Shown piece after piece: positions 5,142 through 16,762 of a DNA stretch of 21,128 nucleotides. A program made the position numbers and the translations under genes. Source of the DNA: a virus. The notes beneath the pieces are model-generated. The model ran no database searches. It saw only the letters and a program-made list of their open reading frames with translations, and was not told the origin of the DNA. Numbering within the stretch: position 1 is the stretch's first letter; each line of letters begins with the position of its first letter. The stretch spans positions 1 to 21,128 of the IMG/VR virus record IMGVR_UViG_3300020411_003556. One strand, written 5' to 3'.

Positions 5142-6113
5142 ATGAGCTGGTTATCCGATTTTTACGCGGCAAATAACATTGGCGGCCCCGGAGGTAAATT
5201 AGATGGTGGTGCTATTGCTTACTGGGAAAGCGAAAAAGATCGCCTAGGGGGTGGAACTGCAGGAGAAAATGCAGTAAAAGACATTATAAGGGGAACTGCC
5301 ATAAATCAAGGAACATGGCAAATGACCAGTGCTGGTAATCCTGGTGGAAATACTGGAGCAGGTAATACGACTAACGCAAATGCTAACAACACGGTTAGTT
5401 CGACTGATTTCGGTTCGATGCTAGACAACCTCACAATTGAGGGATCTGCATTGCAAGGTGGTTTAAGTGGTTTGACGACACTTGCAAATACGTTCGACAA
5501 AAATACCGATATAACAGGAAATGTTGTTGGAAAATTAGGCGACATTTTCACAACCCAAGCAACTAAGGGGATAATGTTGAATTATGAAAAAGATTTAGCT
5601 AATGCGACTTATGAGATAGATAGTAAGAAGATGGATCGAGAGACCGAGGAAGCTCTTGAATTAGGAGCTGCTGAGCATGGTTGGAAGAAGGATGAATATG
5701 CTGCATTAGGTGCTCAAGATCGTTTAACTATTGGTAAGACAGGAGAAGAGACAAGACTCAATATTGGTGAAGAAGGGAAACAGGATCGTCTAAATATTGG
5801 TGCTCAGAAAGACGCTGATATTGCAACGATTGGTGAAACAGGTAAGCAGCAACGTCTTGGAATTATGGAGACGGGTGAACAGCAAAGAATGAATATAGGA
5901 GCCGAGGGGACTCAAGATCGTTTAAATATCGCCGCTACAGGAAGAGAGCAAAGACTAGGTATTAAAGAGACAGGTCAACAGCAAAGGCTTGGTATTATGA
6001 CTGAAGCTGATGAGAAGCGTAAGACATTAAGAGAAGACTACCGACAGCAGAAAGGGATGCGAGCTGACGCAAGAGGTGCTATATCTAGTGCAGGAGCTAA
6101 GTTCTTCGGTTAA
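5142..6113 (+). CDS. Hypothetical virion protein with nine 11-residue repeats
   Basis: 323 residues. Residues 1-65 look folded, and 65-85 are a Gly/Asn/Thr linker. About 90-145 are helical with small residues, then a charged helix runs to about 189. Residues 190-288 hold nine consecutive 11-residue units of the pattern G-x-Q-x-R-L-x-I-G-x-T with no insertion or deletion. The final 35 residues are basic (KRKTLREDYRQQKGMRADAR). Eleven-residue periodicity is the hendecad repeat of right-handed coiled coils, and similar repeats occur in elongated phage structural proteins. It is the last gene of the left-hand run, has the best ribosome site, and abuts the next ATG. The exact role is unknown; an elongated core or tail component is likely. 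Confidence 0.83.
   Translation: MSWLSDFYAANNIGGPGGKLDGGAIAYWESEKDRLGGGTAGENAVKDIIRGTAINQGTWQMTSAGNPGGNTGAGNTTNANANNTVSSTDFGSMLDNLTIEGSALQGGLSGLTTLANTFDKNTDITGNVVGKLGDIFTTQATKGIMLNYEKDLANATYEIDSKKMDRETEEALELGAAEHGWKKDEYAALGAQDRLTIGKTGEETRLNIGEEGKQDRLNIGAQKDADIATIGETGKQQRLGIMETGEQQRMNIGAEGTQDRLNIAATGREQRLGIKETGQQQRLGIMTEADEKRKTLREDYRQQKGMRADARGAISSAGAKFFG
5709..6005 (+). repeat. Nine in-frame 33-bp (11-codon) degenerate repeats
   Basis: These encode residues 190-288 of the surrounding gene. The units read GAQDRLTIGKT, GEETRLNIGEE, GKQDRLNIGAQ, KDADIATIGET, GKQQRLGIMET, GEQQRMNIGAE, GTQDRLNIAAT, GREQRLGIKET and GQQQRLGIMTE. Each is exactly 33 bp. Codons vary between units, so the repeat is old and kept at protein level. 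The fourth unit is the most degenerate, having lost both the leading Gly and the Arg. Confidence 0.9.
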
Positions 6114-14614: not shown

Positions 14615-15409
14615 TTAGTACCCACCGCTCGGAGAGGATACTGTTAGCGTAGCGTAATTAGACGATGTCAGCTCAGATGTCGCTGAAGAAATACGGTGAT
14701 ACATCAACATGCGACCATAAGGCTCAAAACGTCCCTCTGCTGTTCCGACTGAGTTGATAATGATCACTCCGTAACTTGCTTTGTCGCCTGTTGTAGAGCC
14801 TTCTAGGGCCTTAATAATACTAGGAGCAGGAAGCAGGGCATATGTCTCATTAGATAGTAATGCTGAACCAGTCCATTTGACTAACGGTAATCGGCTAGTA
14901 ACAGTTAAAGCACCAGATACAGTACCGTAAAGTTGAACATAGCGAATGACTTCTAAATTGACGCTATAAGGTAGCTTTTGCCACTGAGAAGAACTAATTG
15001 TAAAATAAAAAATTCCAGGCTGTAACTGCAAAAATTTTTCATCAATATCAGTATTAACGATGTCGTTTTGATAAGCAAAACCGCTATCTGTTAAGGGTAT
15101 TGGTTGCTTATTAGCATTTAAGACACCTATCGAAATATATTTATCTGTATGCTTGTTTAGAAGATTTTTAGTGATTCGAATATCTGATTCTCCTAGACTC
15201 TGAACTTTGAAGTAAATCGTATTGGTTCCCACCTCAGTACCGATATGACCGGTGATACGAGTATTTAAGTTATCAACAGAACCTAAATCTTTTGCTTTTG
15301 ATATGGAATTGAATTTAACATGCTCAAGCCTAAGAAAAGAGGGGGAAGTTTTACTGCTCCCCCCGTAAGAATCAGATATTTTATTTAAAGATGTCGTTAC
15401 CGAGGTCAT
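14615..15409 (-). CDS. Hypothetical beta-rich virion protein, probably tail
   Basis: 264 residues, Ser/Thr-rich and beta-strand rich (TSRLPLVKWTGSALLSNE, ASYGVIIINSVGTAEGRFEPYGR). No membrane segment. It is the upstream partner of the tail-fibre-like gene, with 58 nt between them, which suggests a tail or receptor-binding component. I do not recognise the family. The ATG at 15409 has no ribosome site at normal distance; the AAGGA upstream is positioned instead for a 4-codon ORF whose stop overlaps this start (ATGA). Confidence 0.78.
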   Translation of the reverse strand: MTSVTTSLNKISDSYGGSSKTSPSFLRLEHVKFNSISKAKDLGSVDNLNTRITGHIGTEVGTNTIYFKVQSLGESDIRITKNLLNKHTDKYISIGVLNANKQPIPLTDSGFAYQNDIVNTDIDEKFLQLQPGIFYFTISSSQWQKLPYSVNLEVIRYVQLYGTVSGALTVTSRLPLVKWTGSALLSNETYALLPAPSIIKALEGSTTGDKASYGVIIINSVGTAEGRFEPYGRMLMYHRISSATSELTSSNYATLTVSSPSGGY

Positions 15410-15459: not shown

Positions 15460-15576
15460 GTCAGGGGACGCCACACGATAGCTAGTCGCCTGGCGTTATG
15501 TTAAAGACTTAAAGAAACTACAAAAATTTAAGTCGCCCTGATCAATTAGTCCCTGACGTAGTTCTTCTTCGGGACT
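15460..15576. ncRNA. Structured intergenic region, possible RNA element
   Basis: Most of the 170-nt gap between the endonuclease and tail genes can fold. ACGCCA/TGGCGT (15468-15473, 15491-15496) and GACTTAAA/TTTAAGTC (15506-15513, 15527-15534) are local hairpins. GTCAGGG/CCCTGAC (15460-15466, 15551-15557) is a 7-bp long-range pair enclosing both, making a multibranch junction. AGTCCC (15548-15553) can instead pair with GGGACT (15571-15576), which excludes the long-range pair. All stems are perfect. It is not a tRNA (no T-loop motif) and I found no group I intron core. The strand of action is unknown; minus is favoured because both flanking genes are minus. Confidence 0.5.
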
Positions 15577-15579
15577 GAC

Positions 15580-16152
15580 TTAGCGTAACTTCTTTTTCAT
15601 GGAGTAGTGCAAGCAGGGTTGAATCGTGTCTATTAGTGTTTCTAATGCTTCTCGTCCTAAGACCAGTTCAATAGTGGATACTTGGTTGCAGCGAGGAGAT
15701 GCTTTTATATTCCAATAGTCTTGTAACCAACGAGATATGATGATGTATTCCTCGTCAGAGTATCTTCCTTTAATAGAGCCTTTACGCCCAATGACTTTCC
15801 CTTGATCTATCCATAAGGCAGTTAAACCGTGAATACCCGCGATTTTTAATACATCATTAGATATATATTTTTCATCTTTTGGGTACAACAGTTCATAAAC
15901 TCTCCAAAGATGATCGCTTTGAAGCCTAAACCTCTCCCTGTCGTAATAAGTGTCAGTTGCTATGCGATCCCAAAAGACTTCTACTTTGCTGACATGCAAC
16001 TTACGTAGAGTCCTTAATTGGTGATCTAAATATGTTTTATCAACCTCGGATCTAGATATTTCTAGCCAAGGTCTTTTCTTGATTCCTTTGAGTTCTATCT
16101 TCCCTTTGCCCAAGCTGTAGCTCAGTACGCGCACTACGAATCGAGCTTGCAT
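15580..16152 (-). CDS. LAGLIDADG-type endonuclease, degenerate second half
   Basis: 190 residues. It aligns by eye with the upstream ORF: RFRLQSDHLWRVYELLYP (75-91) with RFRVSTNKLRPIHNLLYP, then ALWIDQG (112-118) with AWMWAEG, then ISRWLQ with VSRWLE. It is therefore a second, diverged copy of the same domain. Its first motif (about 3-18, VVRVLSYSLGKGK) has Lys where the catalytic Asp belongs, while D116 in the second motif is kept. Either it is a separate subunit, with its own AGGAG (about 9 nt before ATG 16152), or the C-terminal half of a monomeric enzyme separated by a frameshift. It overlaps the upstream ORF by 101 nt. Confidence 0.7.
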   Translation of the reverse strand: MQARFVVRVLSYSLGKGKIELKGIKKRPWLEISRSEVDKTYLDHQLRTLRKLHVSKVEVFWDRIATDTYYDRERFRLQSDHLWRVYELLYPKDEKYISNDVLKIAGIHGLTALWIDQGKVIGRKGSIKGRYSDEEYIIISRWLQDYWNIKASPRCNQVSTIELVLGREALETLIDTIQPCLHYSMKKKLR

Positions 16153-16762
16153 TCCATTCTTCTCCTGTAAATAGATGCTTTCTAGAGTTGGGGGCGTAAG
16201 GGTAAAGAGTTGATTTAATTTTGTCTGCTTGTTCTTTCTCGAAAACTAGTCGAGGTCTGATGTAATAGTGATTAAGAGATGAACTAGCTCCTGTCAAGGT
16301 CTCAAGCCAACGAGATACTAATCGTGCTTCTTCTTCCGTGTTGCCAACTCTCGCAAGACTGACGATACCTGAATCAAGCATCCTCATACCTTCTGCCCAC
16401 ATCCATGCTGCAGCTTCTCCTCCTAGAAGATCTAATGCTGCTTTTGTAATCTGTCTTTCCCCTCGAGGGTACAAAAGGTTGTGAATAGGTCTTAATTTAT
16501 TGGTTGAAACACGAAAGCGAAGGATAGGAGTTGTCTGCCCATTAGCTCTTGGAGCTGTTTTATAGGGAACAATTTTCGCCTTTGTTGGAATGAATTGCCT
16601 GAATTCTGCAACTTTTTCTTCCAGAAAAGCCGACTCAGATGGACCAGCTGTAAGAGTTAGTTGAACATATCCCCCTCCAGGAGTGCGATAAGAAACAAGG
16701 CTGCCATCTGCAAGTAATAATCCAAGTAATCCTCGAACGTCTATTGCGTCCAAAAGTTTCAC
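16052..16762 (-). CDS. LAGLIDADG-type homing endonuclease, first half
   Basis: 236 residues from a GTG. Two LAGLIDADG-like motifs are visible: RGLLGLLLADG (10-20, acidic D19) and GEAAAWMWAEGMR (115-127, acidic E124). These helices form the dimer core and carry the metal-binding acids that cut both DNA strands. Between them lie strands of the DNA-binding face (VQLTLTAG, ILRFRVSTNKLRPIHNLLYP). The first ~205 residues are domain-like; the last ~30, overlapping the next ORF, look out of frame. No intron or intein surrounds it, so it appears free-standing between tail and capsid genes. It diverges from the capsid gene across a shared intergenic region. Confidence 0.75.
   Translation of the reverse strand: MKLLDAIDVRGLLGLLLADGSLVSYRTPGGGYVQLTLTAGPSESAFLEEKVAEFRQFIPTKAKIVPYKTAPRANGQTTPILRFRVSTNKLRPIHNLLYPRGERQITKAALDLLGGEAAAWMWAEGMRMLDSGIVSLARVGNTEEEARLVSRWLETLTGASSSLNHYYIRPRLVFEKEQADKIKSTLYPYAPNSRKHLFTGEEWNASSIRSARTELQLGQREDRTQRNQEKTLARNI

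Follow-up and report, generated by a model that had tools for sequence, protein, structure and literature searches.

A compact RNA of aquatic phages with a covarying two-domain fold, a mostly palindromic loop and kinship to the cyanobacterial CyVA-1 RNA

The question raised by this locus is what kind of element forms the strongly folding stretch between a LAGLIDADG gene and the next gene of a virus. The window, i.e. the whole stretch of 21,128 nucleotides that was analyzed, corresponds to positions 1 to 21,128 of the IMG/VR record IMGVR_UViG_3300020411_003556. Its major capsid protein matched Synechococcus phage S-EIVl, the sole named phage found, with 68.8% identity. We localized an RNA gene to the minus strand, where it spans about 116 nt from roughly 15576 to 15461. 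Directly upstream lies the LAGLIDADG_2 gene LAG2 (15580-16152, minus strand; Pfam PF03161, 1.1e-07), next to a second LAGLIDADG_2 gene, LAG1 (16052-16762, minus strand; Pfam PF03161, 3.2e-08). The major capsid protein gene lies beyond LAG1. Downstream of the RNA, the next gene runs from 15409 to 14615 on the minus strand and its ATG is located 51 nt past the RNA end.

LAG1 and LAG2 are tandem, overlapping and free-standing, and lie opposite the capsid gene; the pair is retained across the LAG1 loci. In relatives the major capsid gene is interrupted by group I introns (RF00028), for which 19 matches were obtained in 10 of the 12 loci scanned (L015, L020, L021, L026, L032, L034, L035, L037, L039 and L046). 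The intron sites are found at codons about 51, 110, 142, 236 and 286, and the capsid gene of the window has no intron. Both LAG genes are candidate homing endonucleases or maturases for these capsid introns. Within the gene 14615-15409 a hairpin having a run of T resembles a terminator (15341-15364, minus strand). The letters under it code for a YGGS...SPSFLR peptide which is seemingly common to the relatives.

Since LAG2 and the gene 14615-15409 are both encoded on the minus strand, the transcript was expected there. The folding energy of the plus strand was -39.0 kcal/mol (z -4.4) with 0 of 200 shuffles as good, and that of the same bases on the minus strand -37.6 (z -3.1) with 2 of 200 shuffles as good. 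In the minus-strand reading of the relatives G-U cells outnumbered A-C cells 72 to 20, or 43 to 20 when one invariant G-U pair was subtracted. Because of the flanking genes and this excess of G-U changes the RNA was assigned to the minus strand, to which all RNA features below refer. It begins with hairpin A (15548-15576; stem 15571-15576 / 15548-15553, loop region CGAAGNAGAACNACGUCAG), followed by a three-way junction (15461-15541) in which the helix P2 closes hairpins B and C. P2 is formed by UCAGGG (15536-15541) and CCCUGA (15461-15466), the latter being the end of the conserved RNA. Hairpin B (15506-15534) has the stem 15527-15534 / 15506-15513 and the loop UUUUUGUAGUUUC, and hairpin C (15468-15496) contains the stems 15491-15496 / 15468-15473 and 15486-15489 / 15475-15478.

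Two alignments of relatives were used. Alignment A1 holds 40 rows from 50 non-redundant ones; left out were L065, which lacks the 3' domain, and nine rows of the L169 type (L188 and L211 among them) without P2 or C. For alignment A2 (30 rows) ten further A1 rows, misplaced by MAFFT or distant, were dropped. The model R1, built without these ten rows, recovered all of them. In A2 the stem of hairpin A was 100% paired with two-sided changes at four of the five pairs counted. Hairpin B showed two-sided changes at 8/8 pairs and 92.5% paired cells, hairpin C at 6/10 pairs and 93%. The full structure, composed of A, P2, B, C, a pairing between loops and the palindrome of loop C, had 94.4% of its cells paired versus 83.9% in shuffled columns, and two-sided changes were found at 27 of its 37 pairs (slid controls 30-45%). 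Judged by this comparison, the A hairpin, the P2/B/C junction and the A-B loop pairing are under selection. In L065 (near 5800-5880) the 3' part of the RNA is gone from within hairpin B, apparently deleted when compared with L064.

A first-pass annotation of the window had proposed a structured RNA with two exclusive folds at this place. The complementary stretches on which it relied are present: a 7-bp pair (15460-15466 / 15551-15557), one hairpin of 8 bp, another of 6 bp that encloses four more pairs, and 15571-15576, which is indeed able to pair with 15548-15553. The structured RNA as such was borne out by a fold that beats shuffled sequence on both strands and by the covariation across relatives. 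The folded strand and the 7-bp closing helix had to be replaced, the conserved fold being that of the minus strand with hairpin A and P2. The 7-bp helix, which would break hairpin A, exhibited 0 two-sided changes in 30 relatives and was 76.2% paired versus 76.2% in shuffled columns. With this alternative helix not conserved, the two exclusive folds and the switch were abandoned. The apparent alternative is regarded as a local coincidence, because hairpin A and P2 both contain the letters CAGGG.

Six letters of loop A, AACUAC (15558-15563), are complementary to GUAGUU (15516-15521) in loop B. This 6-bp helix reached 100% pairing in both alignments, and across the 40 rows of A1 three of its pairs had changed on both sides. 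Across phages, 104 of 105 distinct instances, which had been found by loop shape with complementarity not required, were complementary at 6/6 positions, and compensatory changes occurred at five of the six pairs; this count used 188 of 192 loci from two variant-motif scans, L433 onward being left out. The lone non-complementary instance, L250, looks like a chance match. After the letters AAC the pairs UAC/GUA, GGC/GCC, GAC/GUC, CAC/GUG, UGC/GCA and AGC/GCU were observed, and GACAGC/GCUGUC and AGCGAU/AUCGCU represent further types.

Upstream of hairpin A a -10-like box, TACGCT (TANNNT; 15582-15587), overlaps the last codons and the stop of LAG2 and keeps its place in relatives. Among 64 non-redundant phage rows (75 minus one with too short an upstream region and minus ten of the L169 type), 53 had a TANNNT whose first letter lies between -19 and -15 relative to the hairpin A letters CGAAG, compared with a shuffled mean of 5.9 and a maximum of 13. 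The start of transcription is predicted 6 nt past the box at the foot of hairpin A (15575-15576), where 81% of the 53 aligned rows carry a G. No -35 box was evident. In seven of the eleven boxless rows (L011, L012, L016, L017, L026, L334 and L352) a similar box was seen by eye about 15 nt further out, ahead of an apparent extra small hairpin. Since the box occupies a fixed place upstream of hairpin A, the RNA probably has its own -10-type promoter with a start at the hairpin foot.

Loop C of the window, UAGCUA (15479-15484), is a palindrome and represents a proposed homodimer contact. Its six letters self-pair in 92.1% of the A2 cells, while slid controls gave 3-57% and one single-pair slide 90%. 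At the two inner pairs, which are impossible within one hairpin, G-C was exchanged for A-U in 7 rows and A-U for G-C in 13 rows of A2. The script rule found no stable C hairpin in 12 of the 75 non-redundant rows, two of which, L254 and L273, carry TGATCA and TGGCCA by eye. Of the remaining 63 rows, which are related and hence do not count as independent events, 45 had a 4-nt palindrome in the unpaired loop C (shuffled mean 17.5, maximum 29) and 26 a 6-nt palindrome (shuffled mean 2.4, maximum 8). Four or five of the 63 have no true C arm and are of the L169 type or similar (L170, L193, L194 and L349, with L246 doubtful). The loop words include UGAUCA, UAGCUA, CAGCUG, CCAUGG, UCAUGA and UGGCCA as well as GGCC or UCGA cores, and in most phage lineages the core alternates between GAUC, AGCU, GGCC and CAUG. 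About a quarter of the lineages have a non-palindromic loop C (e.g., L022, L042, L052, L183, L249, L282, L317 and L325). Whole clades are among the 15 rows without a palindrome, namely those with UCGC loops (L022, L042, L282 and L287), L249 with L261, L183, and L052. In the account of OLE, an inner tetranucleotide alternating between GGCC, GAUC and AGCU forms part of the authors' case for intermolecular pairing (PMC12286853). Following this argument, we infer from the switching palindrome that two copies may join via loop C in most phage lineages; according to the same source, natural RNA homodimers are rare.

The Rfam family CyVA-1 (RF02965, 77 nt, listed as sRNA) matched the minus strand of the window in part under permissive settings (15546-15582); the score of 19.9 bits, with an E value of 8e-4 in the record from which the window derives, is below its gathering threshold of 41.4 bits. 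Among other phage loci L178 reached 29.0 and L012 26.2 bits, and the other 8 of the 10 scanned had no match at E up to 1. Only model positions 33-69, corresponding to hairpin A, align in the window. The CyVA-1 hairpin A loop GAAGGAGAACGACGUCAG is nearly identical in the phage RNA, whereas the enclosing helix and first hairpin of the family (model positions 1-32 and 70-77) are both missing from the window. RF02965 was detected above cut-off in 17 of 194 cyanobacterial genomes with one to four matches each. The cyanobacterial copies were followed past the end of the Rfam model in 28 loci, of which three were shifted repeat matches to copies already counted. Here they continue into a hairpin B, whose UUUUU-type loop is complementary to loop A, and then into another arm. 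Their A-B words matched at 6/6 positions in 19 of the 23 loci scored and at 5/6 in the other four, with six fully complementary types; of two loci missed by the script, L220 fits by eye and L225 does not. In the comparison that also covered the phage instances, the cyanobacterial set comprised the scored loci plus L220, with L225 omitted. The 6-bp complementarity of loops A and B that marks this extended RNA is likewise found in the phage RNA. Thus, the phage RNA is related to CyVA-1 as defined by Rfam and is not a member of it, and the shared elements indicate a common ancestry with the cyanobacterial RNA.

The two forms differ in several respects. In phages the RNA has a compact form, its linker is short and its loop C mostly palindromic, whereas the cyanobacterial C arm has no palindromic loop by eye. 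R1 scored cyanobacterial copies weakly; the best reached 28.6 bits and four loci exceeded the best control of 22.4 bits (L108, described below, aside). A fixed -10 box was sought in 24 cyanobacterial loci and no sharp peak emerged, TANNNT being spread from about -35 to -19. The CyVA-1 RNA is reported to be expressed at low abundance in halite cyanobacteria (PMC7002113). In the literature found under CyVA-1 or RF02965, which did not include the source paper of 2017, neither the extended RNA nor its occurrence in phages was described. In one cyanobacterial genome (G094) two near-identical CyVA-1 copies, L218 and L234 at 404424 and 405150, are 726 nt apart, which suggests a local duplication.

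Scans of viral contigs yielded 30 stretches with the exact loop letters, 75 with a shorter motif, and 108 and 84 with variant motifs; of the last set, the loop test retained only L388 and L416. R1 matched 43 of the 44 motif loci L169-L212, and each of 20 chosen contigs of 31-99 kb held a single copy. S-EIVl gave no R1 match, BLASTn against named phages returned none or just short matches judged to be chance, and LAG1 was not found in named phages. P-SCSP-R27W was dropped as a named carrier after inspection of its match. In genome contigs the hairpin A motif occurred in 96 stretches, and 91 non-cyanobacterial loci were scored with R1. Only L108 scored well (106.7 bits), and a general bacterial RNA was rejected. 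Its contig is binned as a marine Euryarchaeota MAG and is probably a misbinned phage. The Nostoc loci L079 and L159 were rejected by eye as coding chance matches.

We assign a probability of about 0.72 to the reading that the phage element is a trans-acting, self-dimerising structural RNA with an A-B-locked fold, its own promoter and kinship to CyVA-1. Transcription would start from the -10-type promoter at the foot of hairpin A, the monomer would be locked by the pairing of loops A and B, and the working form would be a homodimer, or a larger assembly, joined via the palindromic loop C. The invariant loop letters GAAG-AG, GUCAG, UUUUU and UUC may provide a surface for a factor shared with cyanobacterial hosts. 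Action in trans is strongly indicated, because the RNA lies beside different neighbour genes in different phages and occurs once per phage. A more speculative extension, to which we give a small chance, is that the units of about 116 nt pair via A and B between as well as within molecules and are joined further by C into a ring, chain or cage during infection, mimicking or titrating the longer, non-palindromic cyanobacterial RNA.

The position of the RNA between two genes allows other readings. As a cis-acting leader it could serve as a switch, attenuator or translation element of the gene 15409-14615. The 51 nt to the ATG, a similar spacing in several relatives and the L169-type phages, which hold only A and B and in which hairpin B ends about 10 nt ahead of an ATG, agree with this idea. 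In the latter the gene beside the RNA is similar to genes of Flavobacterium, Methylophilales, Pelagibacter and Roseobacter phages, and a cis role there is possible. For the RNA in general we consider a leader function unlikely. The constant downstream gene that it calls for was not found; that gene is different or convergent in L061, L067, L171, L178 and L047, and in L029 and L039 2 kb separate the RNA from the homologous gene. The neighbours in cyanobacteria are unrelated: the ten neighbour genes of seven loci fell into no shared category (cation efflux, transposase-like OrfB, SnoaL-like, HAD, epimerase, dehydrogenase and unknown). Nor is the 7-bp alternative helix conserved. From the suggested placement upstream of a tail gene, the gene 15409 to 14615 does follow the RNA in the window, but other or convergent genes do so in other phages.

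A function tied to the LAGLIDADG genes, either as a 3' element that stabilises the 3' UTR or as a partner RNA working with the endonuclease, appears improbable. It draws on a close association, since in LAG-bearing phages the RNA lies directly behind LAG2 on the same strand. R1 matched it there in 38 of the 42 LAG1 loci, and two of the four misses (L009 and L025) are contigs that end too early. The other two, L036 and L041, carry LAG1 and LAG2 and have no R1 match, and conversely the RNA was found with no LAG relative nearby in L047, L059, L169, L170, L182, L183 and others and also in cyanobacteria. Moreover, the RNA's own -10 box sits at the LAG2 stop. The suggested processing or termination element after an endonuclease is weakened by the same observations: the adjacency to LAG2 was confirmed, but the RNA also occurs without an endonuclease and has its own promoter-like box.

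We hold it to be highly improbable that the hairpins act as DNA in a recombination, attachment or origin site. Loop C is palindromic as DNA too, and the RNA lies near a tyrosine integrase in L059 and L201 and near tRNA-Ala in L190 and L201; these loci, like L206 with a thymidylate synthase near the RNA, have no LAG genes close by. An integrase or tRNA was not detected in most contexts inspected, the 43 to 20 ratio of G-U to A-C changes agrees with a minus-strand RNA, and the fixed -10 box points to transcription. The remnant of a self-splicing intron or ribozyme, raised by the first-pass annotation because of its setting, is scarcely credible: relatives often have group I introns and LAGLIDADG genes immediately next to the RNA, but the models of group I and II introns and of ribozymes matched neither the window at gathering thresholds nor the surroundings of the RNA at E up to 10, while the same Rfam search detected group I introns in relatives, and the RNA is intact, conserved, outside an interrupted gene and present where no such gene was seen adjacent.

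The 77-nt Rfam motif thereby becomes a two-domain RNA with a tertiary contact backed by comparison, and diverse aquatic phages carry it in a compact version preceded by a promoter-like box of its own. Among known systems the pRNA of phage phi29, about 120 nt in length with loops that pair between molecules, is among the closest. Its model was absent from the three Rfam matches obtained near the RNA at E up to 10. Likewise a phage RNA, it contains a three-way junction, and two of its hairpin loops interlock (PMC5340915). Unlike these, the A and B loops of the phage RNA pair most simply within one molecule; furthermore, the RNA is also found on cyanobacterial chromosomes, where a packaging motor would not be expected. 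Retroviral dimer initiation hairpins use a palindromic apical loop for homodimer kissing as proposed for loop C; they differ in size, host and setting, and a relation by descent is not suggested.

The Rfam models of OLE, GOLLD and ROOL, homo-oligomeric RNAs of bacteria and phages, matched nothing in the window at gathering thresholds, nor near the RNA at E up to 10. Phages carry ROOL and GOLLD, whose function is unknown and which often lie close to tRNAs (PMC12286853). The covariation of adjacent palindrome letters, which serves as a criterion there, was found in most phage lineages, not in all. OLE, GOLLD and ROOL comprise several hundred nt, whereas the phage RNA, with about 116 nt and one candidate symmetric contact, offers a small RNA for the study of palindromic loop switching. 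In this respect OLE is similar, since its symmetric loop alternates between GGCC, GAUC and AGCU, as loop C does (PMC12286853).
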